Shown here piece by piece: positions 25,626 through 44,398 of a DNA stretch of 48,089 bases. Position numbers and translations under genes: made by a program. Origin of the DNA: a virus; IMG/VR virus record IMGVR_UViG_3300047457_000623, positions 1-48,089 of that record; one strand, 5' to 3'. The notes beneath the pieces were generated by a model that worked only from the letters and a program-made list of their open reading frames with translations, was not told where the DNA came from and did not search any database. Position 1 is the stretch's first letter; the number at the start of each line of letters is the position of its first letter.

Positions 25626-26507
25626 ATGGACAAAATATTTGTATCTATCGCTTCATATAGAGACCAAGAACTATTAGATACAGTTTTTTCTATTTTAAAA
25701 CATGCAAAAAATCCCAAAAGACTATTTCTTTCTATTTTTTCACAAGATGAAAATCATCCAAATTTAGAACATCTATTTTCTTTGTTTGATATAAAAGAGT
25801 ATTCGTATAAAAAAATACATTACAGTGATGCACGAGGTGTTGGATATGCCAGGGCAGAAACACAAAAGCCACTTAATTCTACTTATAAATATTATTTGCA
25901 GGTAGATAGTCATACTCAATTTATACAGGATTGGGATGATAGGATAGTCGATCATTATGAAAAGGCTACTGGATATTGGGGAAACCTTATATTTACAGCC
26001 TACCCTGGCACATATGAGTACACAGAAACTGGCAACCTAAAGTTTGCTACATCTCTTGTTCCAACATGCCTTAGAATCCAACCTGCGGAGTCCAACAGCC
26101 CAATAAGATTTGAGCCAAAATATAAAGAATATGTTGGTGGAGACATAGGAGAATTTCATGGATATTTTTGTGCTGGTTTAGCATTTGGATACTCACAATA
26201 TTTTATAGACGTCCCCTATGACGATCAAATATATTTTAACGGGGAAGAACAGACTTTGGCAATTAGATTTTATTGTAAAGACATAAAACTAGTAGCCCCA
26301 CCATACAACTATTGTTTTCATCACTATACTGGACTAAAGCGTTTAAGGCATTGGCAAAATAACGAAACTTGGAAAAAATATGACGACATAGGAATTCAAA
26401 GGCTTAATGATTTTTTTGATTATAAACTAGATGCCACATACGGTATTTCCAATAAAGAAAAGTACCATATGTGGCAATCTTGTTTTGTAACCCCTAGGGC
26501 TACTTAG
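25626..26507 (+). CDS. GlcNAc-transferase-like glycosyltransferase (PF11397 type)
   Basis: 293 residues. KIFVSIASYRDQELLDTVFS at the start, SDARGVGYARAE, YYLQVDSHTQFIQDWDDRIV (the DxD-like acidic site in VDSH) and EFHGYFCAGLAFGY match the glycosyltransferase family of Skp1 GlcNAc transferases. It would move a sugar from a nucleotide sugar to an acceptor. In a tail-gene cluster it may glycosylate virion proteins, such as the Thr-rich stalk, or host surface; not shown by sequence. Its 3' end overlaps the convergent endolysin gene by 8 bp. Confidence 0.78.
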   Translation: MDKIFVSIASYRDQELLDTVFSILKHAKNPKRLFLSIFSQDENHPNLEHLFSLFDIKEYSYKKIHYSDARGVGYARAETQKPLNSTYKYYLQVDSHTQFIQDWDDRIVDHYEKATGYWGNLIFTAYPGTYEYTETGNLKFATSLVPTCLRIQPAESNSPIRFEPKYKEYVGGDIGEFHGYFCAGLAFGYSQYFIDVPYDDQIYFNGEEQTLAIRFYCKDIKLVAPPYNYCFHHYTGLKRLRHWQNNETWKKYDDIGIQRLNDFFDYKLDATYGISNKEKYHMWQSCFVTPRAT

Positions 26508-31767: not shown

Positions 31768-33708
31768 ATGGCAATTAGAATGCAACAGAGAAGAGGAACC
31801 GCAGCACAATGGACTGCAGCGAATCCAACTTTAGCAGCAGGAGAAATCGGATTTGAAACCGATACCAACCAGTTCAAAATTGGAAACGGGTCTTCAACAT
31901 GGTCTGCTCTCTCCTATTTTAAAAATTTAGATGGTCTTGACGGAGTAGGTGGAATTGTAACACTAGACTCTGCTGGTTTAATTCCAAGTGATAAACTTCC
32001 AGATCAATATTTAACAGATAAAATTAATACAAGAATTGGAGAGGTTGTAGGCGCTGCTCCAACAACACTAGATACACTTAATGAAATTGCAGCAGCCTTC
32101 AACAATAATCCAAACTATGCCGACTCTGTAACTGCAGCATTGGCAGATAAGGCATCATTAACACAATTAGCATCAAAGGCACCACTAGAATCTCCTACTT
32201 TTACAGGAACTGCAGTATTTGATGCAGCAACATTTGCTGGAGAGGTTAATGTTCCAACACCACAGTCATCAGATGACTCTACAAAACCTGCAACAACAGC
32301 ATTTGTTCAAGACAAGGTCGAAGTGTTATCTGCAGGAATATTAGCGCTTGAAACATCAACAGATGGAAGTCTTGACACAATTACTACAAATGTTCAAGGT
32401 ATTGCAGAAGATGTAGCAGATTTGCAAACAAGCGTTACATCAATAAATACATCAATTACAAGTATTAATGGAGATGTTGCAACTCTTCAGGCAAATGATA
32501 TTTCACAAACAAATAGCCTAACAGAACTTGATACACGCTTAGACGCAGCAGAATCAACTATAACTGGAAATTCTGCATCAATTTCAACAATAAATACAAC
32601 TTTATCAAATATTGCAACAGATATATCTTCATTAGATGGAAGAGTCGATTCCACTGAATCTGATATTTCATCAATTGATACTACAATTCTTGGAGTCCAG
32701 GGAGATATTTCATCAATTAATACCACAATTTCTGGTATTCAGTCTGATGTTTCTGATTTAGATTCTAGTCTAACTTCTGCACAGTCTAATATAAGCACTC
32801 TACAAAGCGATTTGTCAGATGCTAACTCAGATATTACAACATTACAAACAAATTTATCAACTCTAGATACAAATGTTGATGCAATTGATACAAGAGTAAC
32901 AGCAGCAGAGTCTGATATTACATCTTTACAGACAAGTGCAACATCTGCTTCAGGACATGCGAATGCAACAACAAATGTTCATGGTATCGCTAATACTGCA
33001 GATCTTGCAACAAAGTCTTATGCAGATAATGCAAAAACAGACGCAATTACAACATCTGCAACTGCAATTGCTCTAAAAGCAGATATTGCGTCCCCAGCAT
33101 TGACTGGAACACCAACTGCTCCAACAGCAACAGCAGGTACCAATACAACTCAAATTGCTACAACAGAGTTCGTTGGAACAGCAGTAGCAAATCTTGTTGC
33201 ATCAGCACCAGCAGCACTAAATACTCTTGATGAACTTGCTGCAGCCCTTGGCGATGATGCTAACTTTGCATCAACAGTAACTACATCACTTGCAGCAAAA
33301 GCACCAACTGCAAGCCCAACATTTACTGGAACGGTTGCTTTACCAGCAGCATCATCGGTAACTCTTGGTGGAACTGCTCTTTCAACAACTTTGGCAACAA
33401 AGGCTGATAATGCAGCAACAATTAATACAATGAGTGGATCACACACAATTGTTTCTGCAGATGTCAGTAACATTCGTGAAATGAGCGCTGGAGGAACAAT
33501 AACAATTCCTGCAGATAACTCTTTCTGGCCAGTTGGAGCATCTATGGATGTTATTCAAACTGGATCTTCACAGGTTACAGTTGCTGGAGGTGCTGGAGTA
33601 ACCGTAAATGCAACTCCAGGGTTGAAGTTACGTGCTCAATGGTCCTCTGCAACAATTCTTAAGAGAGCAGCCAATACCTTCGTGGTAATGGGTGACCTCT
33701 CAGCATAA
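31768..33708 (+). CDS. Mtd-N-like fibre protein with coiled coil (646 aa)
   Basis: 646 residues. Mtd-type N-domain (MAIRMQQRRGTAAQWTAANP, IGFETDTNQFKIGNGSSTWS), then a long Ser/Asp/Thr/Ile heptad region (about 195-390; units like SSINTTISGIQSDVSDLDSS) that should form a trimeric coiled coil, then ATKSYADNAKTD and ATTEFVGTAVANLVASAPAA shaft repeats, and a C-terminal beta domain. Shares its first 50 residues with the previous gene. Confidence 0.78.
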   Translation: MAIRMQQRRGTAAQWTAANPTLAAGEIGFETDTNQFKIGNGSSTWSALSYFKNLDGLDGVGGIVTLDSAGLIPSDKLPDQYLTDKINTRIGEVVGAAPTTLDTLNEIAAAFNNNPNYADSVTAALADKASLTQLASKAPLESPTFTGTAVFDAATFAGEVNVPTPQSSDDSTKPATTAFVQDKVEVLSAGILALETSTDGSLDTITTNVQGIAEDVADLQTSVTSINTSITSINGDVATLQANDISQTNSLTELDTRLDAAESTITGNSASISTINTTLSNIATDISSLDGRVDSTESDISSIDTTILGVQGDISSINTTISGIQSDVSDLDSSLTSAQSNISTLQSDLSDANSDITTLQTNLSTLDTNVDAIDTRVTAAESDITSLQTSATSASGHANATTNVHGIANTADLATKSYADNAKTDAITTSATAIALKADIASPALTGTPTAPTATAGTNTTQIATTEFVGTAVANLVASAPAALNTLDELAAALGDDANFASTVTTSLAAKAPTASPTFTGTVALPAASSVTLGGTALSTTLATKADNAATINTMSGSHTIVSADVSNIREMSAGGTITIPADNSFWPVGASMDVIQTGSSQVTVAGGAGVTVNATPGLKLRAQWSSATILKRAANTFVVMGDLSA

Positions 33709-33745: not shown

Positions 33746-34888
33746 ATGGCACTATCAAGAAGCAGAGGTAGAACAGTAAGAAAGTCGGCAGTACCTGCAT
33801 TTGACACATCTTACTCAAGATCTTCATACCAATCATATTTATCTAATATTGGTTTGTTCTATTCAGAAAGTTCTACAAATACTTCTGATAGTGGTTTAGA
33901 TCAAAGATGGGGTTCACAAAATATAACACCTGGTACTATTGTTCCTTTTGGAACTACAATTGGTATCAATTATTATATTTATGTATACCCTGGCTTTAGC
34001 CATTATGCTGGTTTCTATCATGGTTTCTACCATGGTTTTGGTCACTATGCTGGATTTACCCACTATGCTGGATTTACCCACTATGCTGGATTTACCCACT
34101 ATGCTGGCTTCACCCACTATGCTGGATTTACCCACTATGCTGGCTTTGGTCACTATGCTGGATTCTATCATGGCTTCTACCACAGTTTTACTCACTATGC
34201 ATCGTTTTATCATGGCTTTAGTCACTATGCAGCATATTACGGTGGATTCTATCATTCATTCGGACACTATGCCGCATTCGGACACTATGGCGGATTCTAT
34301 CATTCATTCGGACACTATGGCGGATTCGGACACGGTTACGGTGGATTCTATCATGGATTCGGACACGGATATAGCGGATTCGGACACAGTTACGGTGGAT
34401 TCTATCATTCATTCGGACATCGTGGATACTCAATTGGTGGACAAACAGGTATCCTAACGCCAACAGGAACTATAGTTGCAGAAAATGTAAAAGTTGGAGA
34501 CATCCTTCTATCGCTAGATGTATCTGAAATAAATATGGAAAACTTTGATCCTGCAACATGGTATTCAGAGGCACTTTCTGGAAACGGTATTGTAGAAACA
34601 ACAGTTGTATCAGTATCAAGCAGGGTTTCTGCAGAAGCAGTGTCTATCAATGGAGACATATTTTCTACAAGCCACTGGATTTTAACTAAAAAAGACGGTA
34701 TCGTAAAGTTTATGAACTCTACGGATATAGATACAACATATGAGGTGTATAACTCTGCAACTATGGACTGGTCTCCAGTAAGTTCTGCATCAGTTATTGC
34801 TTATATTGATAGAGTCTATACTATCAACTGTGAGCCATACGACATGTTCTTCACTAATACAGCATTAGTGTATGACTCAGTAGAATAG
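33746..34888 (+). CDS. His/Tyr/Phe/Gly-repeat protein with degenerate Hint-like domain
   Basis: 380 residues. Residues 1-82 are a Ser-rich start and a beta segment. Residues 83-225 are about 30 hexapeptide-like units GFxH(Y/G)(A/G), for example GFTHYAGFTHYAGFTHYAGF, an extreme His/Tyr/Phe/Gly composition. Residues 231-380 resemble a Hint (hedgehog/intein) fold: LTPTGTIVAENVKVGDILLS, FSTSHWILTKKDGI (the TxxH block) and VYTINCEPYDMFFTNTALVY at the end. The expected first-residue Cys/Ser is not seen (GILTPTG) and the terminal HN is YD, so splicing or autocleavage is probably lost or altered. Located after the large fibres. Confidence 0.65.
   Translation: MALSRSRGRTVRKSAVPAFDTSYSRSSYQSYLSNIGLFYSESSTNTSDSGLDQRWGSQNITPGTIVPFGTTIGINYYIYVYPGFSHYAGFYHGFYHGFGHYAGFTHYAGFTHYAGFTHYAGFTHYAGFTHYAGFGHYAGFYHGFYHSFTHYASFYHGFSHYAAYYGGFYHSFGHYAAFGHYGGFYHSFGHYGGFGHGYGGFYHGFGHGYSGFGHSYGGFYHSFGHRGYSIGGQTGILTPTGTIVAENVKVGDILLSLDVSEINMENFDPATWYSEALSGNGIVETTVVSVSSRVSAEAVSINGDIFSTSHWILTKKDGIVKFMNSTDIDTTYEVYNSATMDWSPVSSASVIAYIDRVYTINCEPYDMFFTNTALVYDSVE
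33990..34425 (+). repeat. 18-bp tandem repeat array coding HYAGFT units
   Basis: Unit about GGATTTACCCACTATGCT; at least five near-identical copies at 34051-34155 and more diverged ones on both sides. Should expand and contract easily. Confidence 0.75.
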
Positions 34889-34896
34889 TCATAGAA

Positions 34897-35646
34897 GTGA
34901 CTAGACTTCCAAATCATAATTATTATTCTGATGAATGGTCAAATGAACCATTTGTAATTCCAGATAGCATAATAGCGCTTAATGAAAAAAGAATAGGCAG
35001 TGCCACTCCCTATAGCATAAGTCCTCAAATTGCTGCATTTACTAGAAAGTATAGTGAAAAAGTACAAAGTGAGGAAAATTATGAGGCATCGCAGTTTGCA
35101 CAATATGAGGTAGATTGGCAAGAAGAATATCGTGAAGAAAAACACCTATTTGTTCCTCAGAATAGATGGACCCATGAAGTTGTAGAGCCTCCAATTAATA
35201 TTAAAGACAATCTTTATAAAATAAACATTTCTGCTGATGCTTATCCACACCTTAAGCCATTTGAACATAAGTATGAAAATTCGGGAACTATTATTCGTGG
35301 CAATGAATATAAATTTATTACAAGAACACTATATAGATATGTTGATATAACTAAAAATTTTGTAAATGAAAAAGATCTAGATGATGAATGGTGTCCAAGA
35401 ATATATGTATGGAAAATAAGGTGGTTGCCTCAAAAACCAGCCAAACTAACATTTTTCACTAATGAGGATATGGTATACTGGAAGTCACCAGAAACAGTTA
35501 TTGATACTAATGATATTCCAGAAACTGAAGAGGGAGTGGTTGATGTGCCAGTAATATTTAAGCGAGGTATAAAGAGTGCTATGCATTATATAAAGCATGA
35601 CACAACTATTCTATATATGAAAGTAGATTTTTATGAAGAGCAATAA
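34897..35646 (+). CDS. Unknown virion-region protein (249 aa)
   Basis: 249 residues from a GTG: MTRLPNHNYYSDEWSNEPFV, rich in Tyr/Glu/Lys, with RNEYKFITRTLYRYVDITKN and an acidic C-terminus (VPVIFKRGIKSAMHYIKH). No family recognised. It overlaps the next gene by 14 bp and is followed by two paralogous genes, so these form one unit. Confidence 0.68.
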   Translation: MTRLPNHNYYSDEWSNEPFVIPDSIIALNEKRIGSATPYSISPQIAAFTRKYSEKVQSEENYEASQFAQYEVDWQEEYREEKHLFVPQNRWTHEVVEPPINIKDNLYKINISADAYPHLKPFEHKYENSGTIIRGNEYKFITRTLYRYVDITKNFVNEKDLDDEWCPRIYVWKIRWLPQKPAKLTFFTNEDMVYWKSPETVIDTNDIPETEEGVVDVPVIFKRGIKSAMHYIKHDTTILYMKVDFYEEQ

Positions 35647-36349
35647 AAAGAAAATAACCTTTATTCCTAAAAATGAATTTGTTATTGAATATACACATAA
35701 ACCAGAACCAATGGTTAAAAATTTACCAGCCTGGTGGAGAAAAGTTCATCCATATGTTAATGGAGAAAAAAAGGTTATACGGGGACAGTATAACGAAACT
35801 GTAAAAAAGTGTCCTGGAATACTGGATCTTTTGTCAACAGGATATTTATTAAAAACTCCTTGTGATATTTATGTAGATGCAACAGGACCAAAATTAACTT
35901 GGCAAGTTCATGACGCACATAAAGAGTCTGTTGCAGTTCATTCACAAGAGCAGGTAGAGGGTTGGGATTTTGATAAAGAAGAGTGGATGGAGGATATATT
36001 TAGAATTCATCCTATGTGGGTAGTTGCTACATCAAAGGGTTACAGTACATTATTTATACAACCATCATTTCATACAAGTCTACCATTTGAAATTGTTCCA
36101 GCAATTGTAGATACAGATTTATATCCCTCAGATGGGCCATTCTCAATGCGTATTAAAAGAGGATTTAAGGGAATACTTGAGGCAGGCACACCACTAGTTC
36201 AGTGTATACCATATAAAAGAGAAGAGTGGGAATCAAATATTCTAGAAAAACCAGATTTAAAAGTTCTTGGCTCTATTCCGTGGAAATTAAGACACAAGTT
36301 TGGTGGAGCATATAAAAGATTGATGTGGGAAAAGAAGGTATTTAATTAA
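35633..36349 (+). CDS. Unknown protein (238 aa), paralogue of the next gene
   Basis: 238 residues. KPEPMVKNLPAWWRKV near the start, KCPGILDLLSTGYLLKTPCD, then FRIHPMWVVATSKGYSTLFI and PFSMRIKRGFKGILEAGTPL with VQCIPYKREEW at the end. The next gene has the same order (PEPAINNLPDWWKDR, MPFFDAITCGYHYLLPTDV, VVTFFLRKDFEGTIKKGTPI, MSIIPIKRANW). I recall similar proteins in environmental phages (DUF6065-like, uncertain). Stop and next ATG share one base (TAATG). Confidence 0.7.
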   Translation: MKSNKKKITFIPKNEFVIEYTHKPEPMVKNLPAWWRKVHPYVNGEKKVIRGQYNETVKKCPGILDLLSTGYLLKTPCDIYVDATGPKLTWQVHDAHKESVAVHSQEQVEGWDFDKEEWMEDIFRIHPMWVVATSKGYSTLFIQPSFHTSLPFEIVPAIVDTDLYPSDGPFSMRIKRGFKGILEAGTPLVQCIPYKREEWESNILEKPDLKVLGSIPWKLRHKFGGAYKRLMWEKKVFN

Positions 36350-37110
36350 TGGATAAGTTTGAAGAAAAATATGCAAACCCAGCACCACTAGAGGACTTAA
36401 CTGTTCAGTTTTATACTTCTACTGCATATATAAATACTACACCTGGTCCAGAACCAGCAATTAATAATCTTCCAGATTGGTGGAAAGATAGACCTATTTA
36501 TCAGATGAATGATCAAATTGATAGACTATCAATAATGAATAATCGTGGAGCAGATTCAGCATCAATTAGCGTAAAGCATTGTATGCCATTCTTTGATGCT
36601 ATTACCTGCGGATATCACTATTTACTTCCTACAGATGTTCATGTTGCAAAAACAGATGATCCAGATAGACCAGATATTTGGTGGGATGAAGATGCACCAA
36701 GACCAATTGAGATGCGTGGACACTTAGAACTTCCAGTTCCTTCTGGGTGTTATCCAATACATTTTGTTTGGGATATGCGATGGGGTACTAAAATGCCAGA
36801 AGGCTGGTCGGCAATGATTACACATCCAATAGATAGATACGATTTGCCATTTTTTACAATGACTGCGATCCAAGATTCAGATAGATGGTTTACTGGAAAT
36901 GTTGTTACGTTCTTTTTGAGAAAAGATTTTGAAGGAACAATTAAAAAGGGTACTCCAATTATGTCTATTATTCCAATAAAGAGAGCAAACTGGACAATGG
37001 AGGTAGACCACAAATTACAGGCAGAAGGTCTATGGGATCTTGAAAGAAAAAGAAATTATATTTATGGATTCTATAAAAAACATAGATGGATAAGAAAGAA
37101 ATATAGATAG
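36349..37110 (+). CDS. Unknown protein (253 aa), paralogue of the previous gene
   Basis: 253 residues, same domain as the previous gene with an N-terminal extension and a basic C-terminus (RKRNYIYGFYKKHRWIRKKY). The conserved LPxWWxx, [GC]Yxxxxx[TP]xD and IIPIKRxxW elements suggest a common fold; function is unknown. Placed between fibre genes and the ribonucleotide reductase group. Confidence 0.7.
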   Translation: MDKFEEKYANPAPLEDLTVQFYTSTAYINTTPGPEPAINNLPDWWKDRPIYQMNDQIDRLSIMNNRGADSASISVKHCMPFFDAITCGYHYLLPTDVHVAKTDDPDRPDIWWDEDAPRPIEMRGHLELPVPSGCYPIHFVWDMRWGTKMPEGWSAMITHPIDRYDLPFFTMTAIQDSDRWFTGNVVTFFLRKDFEGTIKKGTPIMSIIPIKRANWTMEVDHKLQAEGLWDLERKRNYIYGFYKKHRWIRKKYR

Positions 37111-37906: not shown

Positions 37907-38248
37907 ATGCATGGAATCTCCATTGCTCTCTTACTCTCTATAGTATCCTTGATAGGGTTTTTAGTTATTTATAAATATACAATAGATACTAGACTCACTA
38001 TCAAGGAACTTAGGTTAGATCGTGATACCTATAGAAACAGTATTTGGAATTTTATGAAAGGTATGGATAAAGAAAGAAAGCGTATGGCAGAAAGAAATGC
38101 TCAACAAAACAATATGGCCTACCTTGAATTAAAGAAAAAAATTAAAAAATTGCACGATGATATTGCTGATACAGATTTTGATAGTTATGAAAATGTAAAG
38201 TCTGAAATACTTTCAGCATTAAAAGAAATAGACTCTTATGGCGATTAA
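37907..38248 (+). CDS. Membrane-anchored coiled-coil protein (113 aa)
   Basis: 113 residues. An N-terminal transmembrane helix (ISIALLLSIVSLIGFLVIYK) then a charged coiled coil (RLTIKELRLDRDTYRNSIWN, MAYLELKKKIKKLHDDIADT). Layout as in Rz/i-spanin-type or membrane tether proteins, but actinobacteria usually lack spanins, so the role is open. Overlaps the ferredoxin gene by 11 bp. Confidence 0.65.
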   Translation: MHGISIALLLSIVSLIGFLVIYKYTIDTRLTIKELRLDRDTYRNSIWNFMKGMDKERKRMAERNAQQNNMAYLELKKKIKKLHDDIADTDFDSYENVKSEILSALKEIDSYGD

Positions 38249-38441
38249 TATTAAAATAAATAAAGATTGTCAGGCTTGGGGGCAGTGCGTGTTTGATGCA
38301 CCAGAAGTTTTTGATCTTGTTGAAAGTGAAAGAAAAACCTGGAAGTATAGCGTTGAAGACTCTTTATTAGAAAAGGTTAAGACTGCACAATTACATTGTC
38401 CTAATAGAGCAATATCATTTGAGGTAATTGAAAATGAATAA
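38238..38441 (+). CDS. 3Fe-4S ferredoxin (67 aa)
   Basis: 67 residues. DCQAWGQCVFDAPEVFDL and HCPNRAI: C11 and C17 (C-x5-C) and C54-Pro are the three cluster ligands of actinobacterial 3Fe-4S ferredoxins of the P450 redox type. It would pass electrons to an oxygenase or reductase. Between an oxygenase-like gene (37119) and the ribonucleotide reductase (38640); either could be the partner. Confidence 0.8.
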   Translation: MAINIKINKDCQAWGQCVFDAPEVFDLVESERKTWKYSVEDSLLEKVKTAQLHCPNRAISFEVIENE

Positions 38442-38639: not shown

Positions 38640-40670
38640 ATGTCAGATTTTTTTAGTTTTCGTTTACCAGATGAGTTCATAAATGAGTATAAGTCAAAGG
38701 AGTCGCCCTTTGGTTTTATAGACGCTGGTGGCAACTCATTAGGAGAGATTACGTTTATTCGTACCTACTCCCGTATGAAGGAAGATGGGACTAAAGAACG
38801 CTGGCACGAGGTTTGCCGTCGTGTAATTGAGGGCATGTATTCAGTCCAAAAGAATTGGGCTAAAGAAAATAGGCTTCCATGGAATGACTATAAAGCACAG
38901 AAATCTGCCCAAGAAGCATTTCAACGGATGTTTGAATTAAAATGGACTCCACCAGGTCGTGGTATGTGGGCATTTGGAACTCCAATGACTATGGAAAAAA
39001 GAAATTCTGCTGCACTTCAAAATTGTGCAATGGTATCTACAAAAGATTTAGATAAGAATGATCCAGGTGCATTATTTGCGTGGACAATGGATGCCTTGAT
39101 GCTTGGTGTTGGTGTTGGGTTTGATACTGTTGGACAGGATAAGAATTTTCAAATCTATGCCCCAACAGAACCAGTTGTAAAATATGAAATACCAGATACA
39201 CGTGAAGGCTGGGTCGAATCAGTTAGACTTCTCCTTAACTCATTTCTTAGACCAAACCAAAATATTCAAGAGTTTGATTACAGTCTAATACGACCTCTAG
39301 GAGCACCAATTAAGGGCTTTGGAGGGGTCGCCAGTGGCCCAGAACCACTGATTAAGTTACATAACAGCATTCGTAAGGTAATCGGTACTAGAACAGGCGA
39401 AATACTTGATTCTAGGGCTATAGTAGATATTGTTAATTTAATTGGAACATGCGTTGTTGCTGGAAATGTTAGAAGGTCTGCAACGCTTGCATTAGGTGCT
39501 TCTGGAGATGATTCTTTTATTAATTTAAAAAATCCAGATGTATTTCCAGAAAGAAATTCCTTCGATCCAGAAAATCCAGGATGGGCCTGGATGTCTAATA
39601 ATTCTATATCTGCAACAGTTGGAACGAATTACGAACAATATGTTGACAGAATTGTAGATAACGGAGAGCCAGGCTTCATATGGCTTGATGTTGCAAGAAA
39701 CTATGGCAGACTTAAGGATGCGCCAGACGGTAAGGATTATAGAGTAATGGGTTTTAATCCTTGTGCAGAGCAGCCACTAGAGTCATACGAACTCTGTACA
39801 CTTGTAGAAGTACATTTAAATCGTCATGAATCCAAGGAAGATTTTTTGCGTACCCTTAAGTTTGCCTATCTATATGGTAAAACTGTAACTCTTGTTCCTA
39901 CACATTGGCAACAAACAAATGGAATCATGCAGCGTAATCGTCGCATTGGAACATCGCTTACAGGTATTGCATCATTCTCAGATAAAAATGGTTTGCCAAC
40001 AGTCCGTGAATGGATGGATGAGGGATATAATACTATTCGTAAATATGATCATCAATATTCCGAATGGCTTTGTGTTCGTGAATCAATTCGTGTAACAACT
40101 GTAAAGCCTTCAGGATCAGTTTCTATTCTTTCTGGTGCGACTCCTGGAGTTCACTGGGGACCTGGAGGAAACTTTTTCCTTCGTGCAATTAGGTTTGGTG
40201 AGACAGATCCTATGATGCATTTATTTAAAGCAGCAGGATATAAGATTGAAAAAGATGTTGTATCACAAAATACATCTGTTGTTTATTTTCCAGTAAAATC
40301 TGGACATGCACGTTCCGAAAAAGATGTAACGCTATTTGAAAAGATTGCTCTTGCAGCAACTGCTCAAAAGTACTGGTCAGATAATGGAGTTTCTGTAACT
40401 CTTTCATTTGATAAAGAGTCAGAATCTAAACATGTTGCTCCAGCGCTGCATATGTACGAGGGGCAATTGAAGGCCGTATCATTTTTACCTATGGGCAATA
40501 CAGTATATCCACAACAGCCATACACTCAAATAACAGAGGATGAATATAACGAGTATATTGGAAAGATTAAAAAAATTGATTGGTCTGCTATTTATGACGG
40601 AGTGGATAACCTTGAAGCCCAGGGAGAGGCATATTGCACTACAGATTATTGTGAAATAAAAATATCGTAG
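38640..40670 (+). CDS. rtpR: Adenosylcobalamin-dependent ribonucleoside-triphosphate reductase (class II, monomeric)
   Basis: 676 residues. Converts ribonucleoside triphosphates to deoxy forms with coenzyme B12. The five cysteines of the Lactobacillus leichmannii enzyme are all visible in matching spacing: C129 (LQNCAMVS), the radical Cys C375 in NPCAEQPL, C386 (YELCTL) and the C-terminal pair C666/C671 (YCTTDYCEI). GTCVVAGNVRRSATLALG is the conserved middle strand. Somewhat shorter than the 739-residue reference, the loss lying between C386 and C666. Supplies dNTPs for phage replication in a B12-producing or B12-importing host. Confidence 0.93.
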   Translation: MSDFFSFRLPDEFINEYKSKESPFGFIDAGGNSLGEITFIRTYSRMKEDGTKERWHEVCRRVIEGMYSVQKNWAKENRLPWNDYKAQKSAQEAFQRMFELKWTPPGRGMWAFGTPMTMEKRNSAALQNCAMVSTKDLDKNDPGALFAWTMDALMLGVGVGFDTVGQDKNFQIYAPTEPVVKYEIPDTREGWVESVRLLLNSFLRPNQNIQEFDYSLIRPLGAPIKGFGGVASGPEPLIKLHNSIRKVIGTRTGEILDSRAIVDIVNLIGTCVVAGNVRRSATLALGASGDDSFINLKNPDVFPERNSFDPENPGWAWMSNNSISATVGTNYEQYVDRIVDNGEPGFIWLDVARNYGRLKDAPDGKDYRVMGFNPCAEQPLESYELCTLVEVHLNRHESKEDFLRTLKFAYLYGKTVTLVPTHWQQTNGIMQRNRRIGTSLTGIASFSDKNGLPTVREWMDEGYNTIRKYDHQYSEWLCVRESIRVTTVKPSGSVSILSGATPGVHWGPGGNFFLRAIRFGETDPMMHLFKAAGYKIEKDVVSQNTSVVYFPVKSGHARSEKDVTLFEKIALAATAQKYWSDNGVSVTLSFDKESESKHVAPALHMYEGQLKAVSFLPMGNTVYPQQPYTQITEDEYNEYIGKIKKIDWSAIYDGVDNLEAQGEAYCTTDYCEIKIS

Positions 40671-40690: not shown

Positions 40691-43600
40691 ATGTCTAGTC
40701 CATCGAACCTATACGCAGAAAAAATATTTTCGGAACACCCGACAGTTCTTTGGGCTTTGGACGATCAGGCAGACTATATTTCTTTAATTTCAGAAAATGA
40801 TCGCAAAGTATATAATTGGACGGTAACTGGTGGAACTGCAACTGTAGATTCTACAATGATAGACGAACCATTTCCTTCATCATCAGTTACCAAACTAGTC
40901 GGCAATGTAACATCTGAAGATTATTCAAAAATTATTTGTATTAGTGACGAGGTATTTAATTTAGAAGATTTAAATACTTATATGGCAACTTTTTCAATTG
41001 GAGCGTACATATATTCTAACAGTCCATATATTTCTGGTATAGAAATAGGGTATCAGTATTACGATGAAACCACAGCATCAACAGTTGAGAAATTAAAAAA
41101 CTATGGAACATCTGTTTATAATAGATGGATATTTGTTTCTGAAACATTTACAATACCATCTGAAGTTGCAGCAGTAAAATTAGTATTAAAGGTTAACTAT
41201 ATTGGTGGCGCAGAATCGACAGATGATTACATATTTTTTGTTAATGGTGTTACTGCAGGTCAATGGGCAGAAGAGTTTAATTCAAGTTCTTTAGGATCAA
41301 ACAAAATATCTTTGCCATCATCAATAGCACTTGATCCATCATTTGTAATAGAGGCAACATCTTATGGATTACAAAATACCCCTGGATATTATTTTGTAAC
41401 TGATAATGCGCTTGTTGCTAAAAACTCTGGTATACCAATTGTTTATGGTTCAGGAAATACAACCATACTTTCTCCAAATAACAATAAGCCATCACTAATA
41501 ATTCCTGGTTATGGATTTTTAAATGATTCTGGAAAATTTAAAGAGTATACATTAGAAATGTGGTTAAGAGTAAACTCAGACTCATCATCTAGAAAAAGAA
41601 TCTTTGGTCCAATATCATCAACAGATGGCCTTTATGTAGAAGGACCATTCATACTTTTGAAGGTAGGAGAAACATTTGGATCACATTACATTGGTGAGTG
41701 GACAAGACCAATGATCGTACATATTAAATATAGTAATAATTCAGCATCGCTTATGATTAATGGCGAAGAGGTTATATCCTTGAACATTTTAACATCGAGT
41801 CTATCATTTCCTAAACTTTTATCTGAATCTGGAAAGACTCAGGACTGGCTTGGATTTTATTCATATGAAGATGTTTCTCCAGTAGAAGTTGATTGTGTGT
41901 CTATATATTCTTATCCAGTTCCATCATTAGTTGCAAAAAGAAGATTTGTTTATGGTCAAGGAGTAGAAGTTCCAGAAAATATTAATGCATCATATAGCGG
42001 AACATCAATGTTTATAGATTATCCGTTTGCTGACTATTCAAACAACTATATGTATCCAGATCTTGGATCGTGGTCTCAGGCATCCATAGATAACCTATCT
42101 GTAACTAATAACTTTTTAACAACAAAAGACTACAAGTTGCCAGAAATATTTTTAAGTAATAAAACTGTAGATGAATTATATGACGCATGTAAGAATTTGC
42201 CAACAGAAGATAACTTATATCTTAAATTAAAGCCAACTGGATGGTCTGATACTAATGGATATCTTCTGTTTGATGACATATCTATGGTCACTTCATCTAA
42301 AGCATTATATGGTATTTTTAAGGTTTCAAATGTAGTAGGAACCAAGGTATTGTTTAGAATAGATAATGCGGTTACAAAAGAATACTTCAGCATTGAACTT
42401 GTTGGAAATAAAATTAAATATTTATTTAAATATGAAGAATTGTCTAATGGTCAATCTCAAACAAATATTGATGAAATATATGAGTCTAGTTCAATTCTGG
42501 TTGGAGATGACTTTGTTGCTGGAATCGACATACCAACATTTGTAACATATTATGGTGGCAGACTTACTTCGTTTTTTGGTAACTTATCATCAGCAAAATT
42601 ATATGTTGGTGGATGTAAAGAATTAATCAATACGTTCGATGGAAATATATATCATATTGGTTTTTCTAGTAACAAAAACTTTTTATCTATTTCTCACGTA
42701 TTCAATTCAACATTAGGAGTACCAGCAGACTTTGAAAATATATTCAATTTATACTCTTCTCAAATAGATTATGATGCAGGACAGTACTACGGAACAAGTC
42801 AGTATTTTTGGCTTTATATTTTAGATGGTGGATCGCCAACATCATTTGCAAGCAATACATTAGATATGCATACAGCGACATACACACTTTCTCCAGTTAT
42901 AGATTTTGACAAGTTTTCTTTAACAATAGATATTCAGGGAACATGGGAAGATCAAATACCTCTCTCATATTTTGCACAGTATGTTACTGATCCACGTGGT
43001 GACTCATATTATGATTTAGACTTTATACAATTTAATGTCAATTATCCAGCACCATCTATATTCCTGGAAGAAGAAACAGAGGGTGAATGGACGTATGGAG
43101 AATTGCATTCTCAATATTCAAACCCAGTTTTAAGAACCTACGAGTCGTTAGATAATCACCTTTTCACAGGATATCTTGACTACAATGATTTAAAAAATAA
43201 ATCAGAAAAAACCTATAAATATGATACGTCTAATTCTTTAGTAAAATCATACATAACATTTCAATATTTAGAAACAGGTGCAAATGCCCCAGACTCATTT
43301 TTTATTAATAAAGAGATGGCTCCAAAGATAGGGATTGTTGATCCACAAGACGACTGGATACAAACAAAGTATGAGATTGTGGATAACATGTTAATTTATC
43401 CACCAAAAGGCGCCAACTTCAATGATCTTGCAATAGTTGTAGAACTTAATTTTAAAATTAAAAATGTATTAAAAAATAAAGTACAAGTTAAAAAGTTACA
43501 GTTAGCATCTCAGGCCTTCAATGATGTGTCTCCTAACGAAATTGGAACTAGATTTGCAGTGCCAATTTATCCATATAGAAAAACTGGATACTATTATGAT

Positions 43601-44398
43601 TTTAAAAACCAAAATCCATTTACAATTTACAAAGGTAGTTCTCCATATCTTTACTTAACCAGATATTCTGGTATTCAGGTTCGTGGACAATATGATCCAC
43701 TTGTTAATCGTGGTATTTTTATTCCAATTAATCCAGCATCATCATCAGATTATAAGGTTATGGCAATGCAGGCAGCGATACGGTTTGACGAAGACTTTTT
43801 CCCATATGCTCCAACACAAATTTTTGAAATAGAAAGCAAGGACTATTTAATTAAATTCTTTATGGTTGCATCACACCCAGATGGCAAGAGAGCAAGAATT
43901 TATGCTATTAATGCAAAAACTGGTCAGGTAGAAGAGGGGATTGGCTTTTACTTAAATGGAAAGATTGTTAAAGATCCAACAATAACGATTAAAGAGTGGT
44001 CTTTCCTTGGAATATCATTTTCTAACTTATTAGATTTTACCAATTATGTTGGCTCTATTAAAATCAATGGCCCACTTTTAGTTAATCTAGTTTCTCATTA
44101 TAAATCTACTAACCTACAGGAAGTACAAAACGTCATTGAAAGACCATGGTTTAGGGTTAAAAGAGATGGCGGATTACAGTTTGATTGGCAATACTGGGAT
44201 TCTGCATATATTTGGCAGGGGGTACTAGTGCTATCTACAACCTCATATTATGGAGTAAAGCCATCAGACATCTACAAGAGTTATACTGGAACCAACAAAA
44301 TCATAGTTGACGATACACGAGAATTTAGGCTAAACGGATACCAATATAAGGTTTATGCAGATATTTCATGGCAATCTAAAATCCAAAATGCCGTATAG
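40691..44398 (+). CDS. Large LamG-type tail protein (1235 aa)
   Basis: 1235 residues, the largest gene here. Concanavalin-A/LamG-like parts are visible, for example EYTLEMWLRVNSDSSSRKRI with SASLMINGEEVISL (about 290-360), and others around 490-640 and 1010-1130, where ...IRFDEDFFPYAPTQIFEIE and a further GxIKINGP strand pair occur. Start MSSPSNLYAEKIFSEHPTVL. Such multi-lectin proteins are usual in tail tips of environmental actinophages and may bind surface glycans. Leaderless-type start. Confidence 0.7.
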   Translation: MSSPSNLYAEKIFSEHPTVLWALDDQADYISLISENDRKVYNWTVTGGTATVDSTMIDEPFPSSSVTKLVGNVTSEDYSKIICISDEVFNLEDLNTYMATFSIGAYIYSNSPYISGIEIGYQYYDETTASTVEKLKNYGTSVYNRWIFVSETFTIPSEVAAVKLVLKVNYIGGAESTDDYIFFVNGVTAGQWAEEFNSSSLGSNKISLPSSIALDPSFVIEATSYGLQNTPGYYFVTDNALVAKNSGIPIVYGSGNTTILSPNNNKPSLIIPGYGFLNDSGKFKEYTLEMWLRVNSDSSSRKRIFGPISSTDGLYVEGPFILLKVGETFGSHYIGEWTRPMIVHIKYSNNSASLMINGEEVISLNILTSSLSFPKLLSESGKTQDWLGFYSYEDVSPVEVDCVSIYSYPVPSLVAKRRFVYGQGVEVPENINASYSGTSMFIDYPFADYSNNYMYPDLGSWSQASIDNLSVTNNFLTTKDYKLPEIFLSNKTVDELYDACKNLPTEDNLYLKLKPTGWSDTNGYLLFDDISMVTSSKALYGIFKVSNVVGTKVLFRIDNAVTKEYFSIELVGNKIKYLFKYEELSNGQSQTNIDEIYESSSILVGDDFVAGIDIPTFVTYYGGRLTSFFGNLSSAKLYVGGCKELINTFDGNIYHIGFSSNKNFLSISHVFNSTLGVPADFENIFNLYSSQIDYDAGQYYGTSQYFWLYILDGGSPTSFASNTLDMHTATYTLSPVIDFDKFSLTIDIQGTWEDQIPLSYFAQYVTDPRGDSYYDLDFIQFNVNYPAPSIFLEEETEGEWTYGELHSQYSNPVLRTYESLDNHLFTGYLDYNDLKNKSEKTYKYDTSNSLVKSYITFQYLETGANAPDSFFINKEMAPKIGIVDPQDDWIQTKYEIVDNMLIYPPKGANFNDLAIVVELNFKIKNVLKNKVQVKKLQLASQAFNDVSPNEIGTRFAVPIYPYRKTGYYYDFKNQNPFTIYKGSSPYLYLTRYSGIQVRGQYDPLVNRGIFIPINPASSSDYKVMAMQAAIRFDEDFFPYAPTQIFEIESKDYLIKFFMVASHPDGKRARIYAINAKTGQVEEGIGFYLNGKIVKDPTITIKEWSFLGISFSNLLDFTNYVGSIKINGPLLVNLVSHYKSTNLQEVQNVIERPWFRVKRDGGLQFDWQYWDSAYIWQGVLVLSTTSYYGVKPSDIYKSYTGTNKIIVDDTREFRLNGYQYKVYADISWQSKIQNAV

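Follow-up and report, generated by a model that had tools for sequence, protein, structure and literature searches.

The gene at positions 33,746-34,888 (+ strand) of the window, that is, of the whole stretch of 48,089 bases analysed here (metagenomic virus record IMGVR_UViG_3300047457_000623), is real and complete and encodes a protein of 380 amino acids made of three parts: an N-terminal PASTA domain, a low-complexity repeat dominated by aromatic residues, His and Gly, and a C-terminal Hint domain. This architecture and the Hint fold are in our judgement very nearly certain. The reading that we favour for the protein as a whole, with a probability of about one half, is that of a self-processing adhesin of the tail-fibre region, in which a PASTA head would be borne by a flexible repeat chain and followed by a Hint domain that cleaves itself.

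The window belongs to a tailed phage that infects bacteria, known from metagenomic data, whose portal protein is 46-47% identical to the portals of large Streptomyces phages. Its right half contains the genes of the portal, of a head protease and of a class II ribonucleotide reductase, one that resembles a baseplate connector, and tail-fibre genes of the Mtd_N and other types. The gene under study begins 37 bases past one of these fibre genes (31,768-33,708; 646 residues, Mtd_N), a relative of which is found in 122 of the 136 fetched loci, some of them fetched twice. Taken with the annotation of distant homologues, this neighbourhood suggests that the product is a virion or tail-fibre protein. 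The dN/dS ratio against the closest relative (L004) is 0.36 in the N-terminal part and 0.17 in the Hint part, and against other relatives, where dS is unsaturated, it lies between 0.08 and 0.24; by this measure, the gene is under purifying selection. The open reading frames that cross the repeat in other frames (33,939-34,457 on the + strand and 33,914-34,255 on the - strand) were taken as by-products of the repeat.

Other genes of the window gave observations of their own. A GlcNAc-type glycosyltransferase (25,626-26,507, +; Pfam 1.3e-36) lies within the tail-fibre region and had no match among the fetched loci of the relatives. A tandem pair of paralogues (35,633-36,349 and 36,349-37,110, both +) belongs to phrog_7084, of unknown function, and is present in 88 of the 136 fetched loci. 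A small ferredoxin-like protein (38,238-38,441, +; Pfam Fer4_13 at 1.2e-5, above the cutoff) adjoins the B12-dependent ribonucleotide reductase (38,640-40,670), and the 1235-residue product of 40,691-44,398 (+), with no PHROG match and a weak lectin-like Pfam match, has matches in 42 loci, the best at approximately 50-55% identity.

Relatives of the protein were gathered by two scans of viral contigs, one with its C-terminal part (57 loci) and one with an alignment (192 relatives, of which 80 were kept), and pooling both gave 86 distinct proteins from metagenomic loci that partly overlap between the scans. They were needed to recognise the N-terminal head, which was absent from the domain picture of an earlier sequence-only reading of this DNA: the N-terminus of the window protein alone has no PASTA match in Pfam, whereas four relatives (L011, L012, L047 and L056) pass the Pfam PASTA cutoff and a profile built from PASTA-type relatives matches the N-terminus of the window protein with an E-value of 1.7e-21 (79 bits). 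The domain spans residues ~12-80 (33,779-33,985, +) and is modelled by AlphaFold2 with a pLDDT of ~83-90. In cellular proteins, the PASTA fold binds cell-wall muropeptides. The heads of other relatives match FN3 in Pfam.

The same applies to the Hint domain (residues 229-377; 34,430-34,876, +), since the window protein alone finds no Hint family and no convincing match in Pfam or PHROGs, and looked unassigned for that reason; a Shufflon_N match (E 0.012) was set aside as chance. The Hint-like fold that had been proposed from the letters alone is nonetheless borne out by both predicted structure and sequence profile. The AlphaFold2 model from a 74-row alignment reaches a pLDDT of 94.5 and a pTM of 0.89, and when this predicted structure was compared with the PDB by Foldseek, all 46 matches listed at E≤0.001 were inteins, bacterial intein-like (BIL) domains or Hedgehog proteins, with the BIL domain 2lwy at the top (E 1.3e-7, TM 0.71/0.78) and Hedgehog structures at 1e-4 to 3e-4. 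At the sequence level, the profile detects 2lwy with an E-value of 1.6e-5 and the gp41-1 intein with one of 0.004, and at E≤0.1 Pfam Intein_splicing recognises 30 of the 74 members (best 6.7e-6). No second Hint domain was detected above chance in the window. Two viral contigs, 3300032326_001363 (L096/L106) and 3300043570_002078 (L098/L131), carry two Hint-repeat loci each, which suggests several copies per phage.

Beyond the predicted horseshoe-like beta fold, the domain has the features by which the Hint superfamily is recognised, namely an N-terminal Ser nucleophile and a [T/S]xxH motif in block B. The sequence-only reading had drawn the boundary two residues late and held the first Cys/Ser to be missing, but Ser229 (34,430-34,432, +) aligns with intein residue 1 and is the predicted nucleophile, the predicted scissile bond being Tyr228-Ser229. 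This Ser is invariant in the 86 distinct relatives, down to identities of ~33% (85 in the domain alignment, plus L018, which was left out of it and also carries Ser1). The entropy of its column is 0, while residues 227, 228, 230 and 231 have 3.04, 2.35, 1.47 and 1.86 bits. The block B motif, Ser307-x-x-His310 (34,664-34,675, +), is likewise kept as [S/T]xxH in 86 of 86. Both Ser1 and the block B His lie outside the listed search patterns of the two scans; INCEPYD was part of a search pattern, so that its own invariance is biased and provides no independent evidence. That motif belongs to block F/G (34,820-34,876, +), which reads Thr359-INCEPYDMFF...LVYD and in which Asp377 replaces the terminal Asn. 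The terminal residue is Asp in 82 of the 86 relatives, Asn in three and Glu in one; Tyr or Phe usually stands in place of the penultimate His, and the block F His has become Asp. The absence of the terminal His-Asn, noticed from the sequence, thus stands, the window protein having Tyr376-Asp377 there. Only three residues follow Asp377 (roughly 25 at most in relatives), and the +1 residue after the Hint domain is of 13 types among the relatives. Separately, an EPVII-repeat subfamily (L078, L080 and L089) has a Cys-Gly-Ser junction and a terminal Asn (LVYN), possibly an intermediate towards the canonical terminal Asn.

To which class of Hint domain does this pattern correspond? A splicing class 1 intein was rejected, given the lack of a C-extein in a protein whose Hint domain is C-terminal, with three residues after Asp377 and a variable +1 position. 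A class 3 intein was rejected as well: Ser1 is present and the block F:4 Cys is not; where gp41-1 was mutated to Cys (F:4), the aligned position here is Ser or Thr (residue 359), and an invariant Cys362 comes three residues later. An A-type BIL domain needs His-Asn, found in none of the 86, and a Hedgehog Hog domain would require a sterol-recognition region in a protein that stops three residues after Asp377. BIL domains are the best match in both sequence and fold (2lwy, from C. thermocellum) and, like the present family, occur in variable, non-housekeeping proteins; they differ in that residue 1 is usually Cys, where it is Ser here. The A-type terminal His-Asn being absent, the logic of the domain is nearest to the B-type BIL, in which every splicing motif is kept except the C-terminal one (PMC7765530); the motif pattern fits that description, so far as motifs go, and makes the domain a candidate B-type. 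The Hedgehog C-terminal autoprocessing domain (1at0, 6tyy) is similar in the placement of the Hint near the C-terminus, the retention of the acyl-shift residues and the lack of predicted splicing, although the phage domain is viral, starts with Ser1 instead of Cys1 and has no sterol-recognition region.

Homologues of jumbo phages are canonical where read. In the collection of named phages, the window Hint domain has a single match, to a protein from Erwinia phage pEa_SNUABM_33 (27.7% identity, E 4e-3; two records of one phage) labelled 'virion structural protein', a label that, as for the other homologues, comes from annotation; the papers on the Dickeya solani and Erwinia jumbo phages contain no virion proteomics that could be linked to the Hint homologue. 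This protein (MPK70_gp111) has collagen repeats and a C-terminal textbook Hint domain, with Cys1, THEH and ...DPFDCYFVGDVLAHN, the last of which occupies the block F/G position of Thr359-INCEPYDMFF...LVYD. It matches Pfam PT-HINT at 9.8e-6, just under the cutoff, and obtains 58.6 bits from the family profile, with an E-value of 1.8e-17 for a small set. The profile also finds Alcaligenes phage Afa-NA1 and Phage NCTB, whose BN7874_136 is annotated 'putative phage tail protein, contains intein domain'. Homologous Hint domains close the collagen-repeat tail proteins of Erwinia phages, Afa-NA1 and Phage NCTB, and also those of Dickeya and Yersinia phages. These proteins resemble the window protein in bearing repeats, in lying among tail-fibre genes and in ending with a homologous Hint domain that has an [E/D]P[YF]D motif. 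Their repeats, however, are of the collagen Gly-X-Y type and their Hint domains have Cys1, TxxH and His-Asn (in all three homologues read), in place of the HYGF repeats, Ser1, SxxH and Tyr-Asp. In Phage NCTB, a stand-alone Hint-like protein of ~153 residues (L140:4386-4847) directly follows the collagen-Hint tail protein; it scores 23.9 bits against the family profile, ends in LVHN and is possibly a trans-acting partner.

Between head and Hint domain, the repeat covers residues ~81-225 (33,986-34,420, +) in units such as GFxHYA, GFYH and GFGHGY. Residues ~81-228 (148 residues) include 37 Gly, 29 Tyr, 26 Phe, 26 His and 13 Ala, and just one of them is charged. The hexapeptide repeat of about 143 residues that had been described from the sequence is well founded: its motif matches 18 times, where 2000 shuffles that preserved the composition gave 1.0 match on average and never more than 5; 40 of the 54 steps from one aromatic residue to the next are of three residues, and the His-His spacing is mostly 4 and 6. 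The DNA contains an 18-bp tandem array (34,043-34,164; 6.8 copies, 91% match) and a 54-bp one (34,237-34,419), and among close relatives the repeat varies from 106 to 147 residues between constant flanks (78-79 residues before the first repeat and 152-156 in the Hint part), in agreement with the suggestion that 18-bp repeats permit changes of length. In the AlphaFold2 model of the full protein both ends are ordered and the pLDDT stays at ~25-32 all through the repeat, which is accordingly predicted to be disordered.

Other relatives carry different repeats in place of HYGF (FGA, NPGF/NEPAF, FFPP, FTPF and EPVII). On a maximum-likelihood tree of the Hint domain, the repeat classes, set by simple text patterns, change at least 13 times, FGA at least four times by well-supported branches, which implies that the Hint domain stayed constant while repeats were swapped or arose anew. 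Most of them have Phe or Tyr every few residues, with a mean of 32-41% aromatic residues and 0-3% charge in the richest 48 residues; a few are non-aromatic (EPVII, PVNP and that of L128). His-bearing repeats occur in 17 of the 86, the other 69 averaging no His in their most aromatic 48-residue stretch. Of the two roles envisaged for the dense His and Tyr, an adhesive glycine- and aromatic-rich chain is plausible, while metal binding as the main role is weakened: the confinement of His to one repeat class makes such a role unlikely across the family. A works-like analogy is provided by the histidine-rich beak proteins of squid, whose modular Gly/Tyr/His repeats drive phase separation as His is deprotonated, hydrogen bonds form between His and Tyr, and Tyr residues cluster (PMC6884462); there is no homology, and the phage repeat is also Phe-rich and joined to PASTA and Hint domains.

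According to the favoured reading, after folding Ser229 would attack the Tyr228-Ser229 peptide bond in an N-to-O acyl shift assisted by the block B His310, and the resulting ester would be resolved by water or an outside nucleophile, so that the PASTA head and the repeat would come away from the Hint domain and no splicing would take place. There would be no C-extein worth ligating, because the Hint domain lies at the C-terminal end and hardly anything follows it. What the conserved residues most economically predict is that this bond is cleaved, or its acyl group transferred, with no splicing, in the manner of Hedgehog or B-type BIL domains. The freed or ester-transferred chain would then serve as a cohesive, extensible linker that keeps the head, of a wall-binding type, close to the virion or to the wall of the host. 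The repeat, instead of adopting a fixed fold, would act through sticker-spacer contacts between aromatic residues, and this would account for the way in which very different Phe-rich repeats replace each other.

That the Hint domain actively carries out the N-terminal step seems to us slightly more probable than that it does not. Ser1 is a weaker nucleophile than Cys1, and the conversion of the block F His to Asp and of the penultimate His mostly to Tyr or Phe also speaks against self-cleavage; the conservation of Ser1 and His310 could be structural. A catalytically dead domain, kept for folding, oligomerisation or anchoring at the end of a fibre protein whose full-length form is the mature one, would agree with those altered C-terminal residues (HN to YD included) and with the strongly predicted fold. 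We nevertheless regard it as the less probable outcome, since a structural role predicts some relatives devoid of Ser1, none of which is seen among the 86, and both Ser1 and the block B His are invariant next to variable neighbours. From the two options left by the sequence-only reading, a fold kept for structure or a self-processing variant, the combination of an invariant Ser1 and [S/T]xxH with changed C-terminal splicing residues favours the latter.

If the domain is active, water need not be the acceptor. An amine or hydroxyl of a virion protein, a glycan or a cell-wall component might resolve the Ser229 ester and leave the C-terminus of the repeat covalently fixed, as the retained N-terminal-step residues, the altered C-terminal step and a C-terminal Hint domain without a real C-extein reproduce the arrangement of Hedgehog, which uses the initial acyl shift only (PMC7664689). 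The lack of an acceptor-recognition region after the Hint domain, and of any known acceptor, makes such an attachment improbable in our view. We give similarly long odds to its fullest form, a viral Hedgehog-like system in which a Ser-type Hint domain would activate an exchangeable, phase-separating aromatic repeat at its C-terminus and join it covalently to a virion or bacterial-wall partner as a self-installed adhesive tether. Most improbable of all is a metal-binding or metal-crosslinked fibre repeat with an incidental Hint domain: the 26 His in 148 residues and their spacing would suit it, but 69 of the 86 relatives keep the same Hint domain without a His-rich repeat.

The family is large and apparently unstudied. 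No confirmed relative was found by a pattern scan, of limited reach, of cellular genomes of 84,980 species (one per species), and searches of the literature for phage tail or virion proteins that carry a Hint, intein or PASTA domain did not yield a description of this arrangement; where Hint domains are reported in phages (relatives of phage CBB, phiCbK, staphylococcal and Salmonella phages), it is enzymes or terminases that carry them, as inteins or intein-associated domains. Biotechnology might find uses for such compact Ser-type processing domains and for the natural low-complexity repeats, and a simple test of Ser1-dependent cleavage would bear on why certain phage fibre proteins terminate in a Hint domain. 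The family adds to the Hint superfamily a viral branch with an invariant Ser1 and an Asp in place of the terminal Asn, borne by likely structural proteins instead of housekeeping enzymes, and offers an example of repeat types being exchanged against a fixed, predicted processing domain whose predicted cutting site stays constant.
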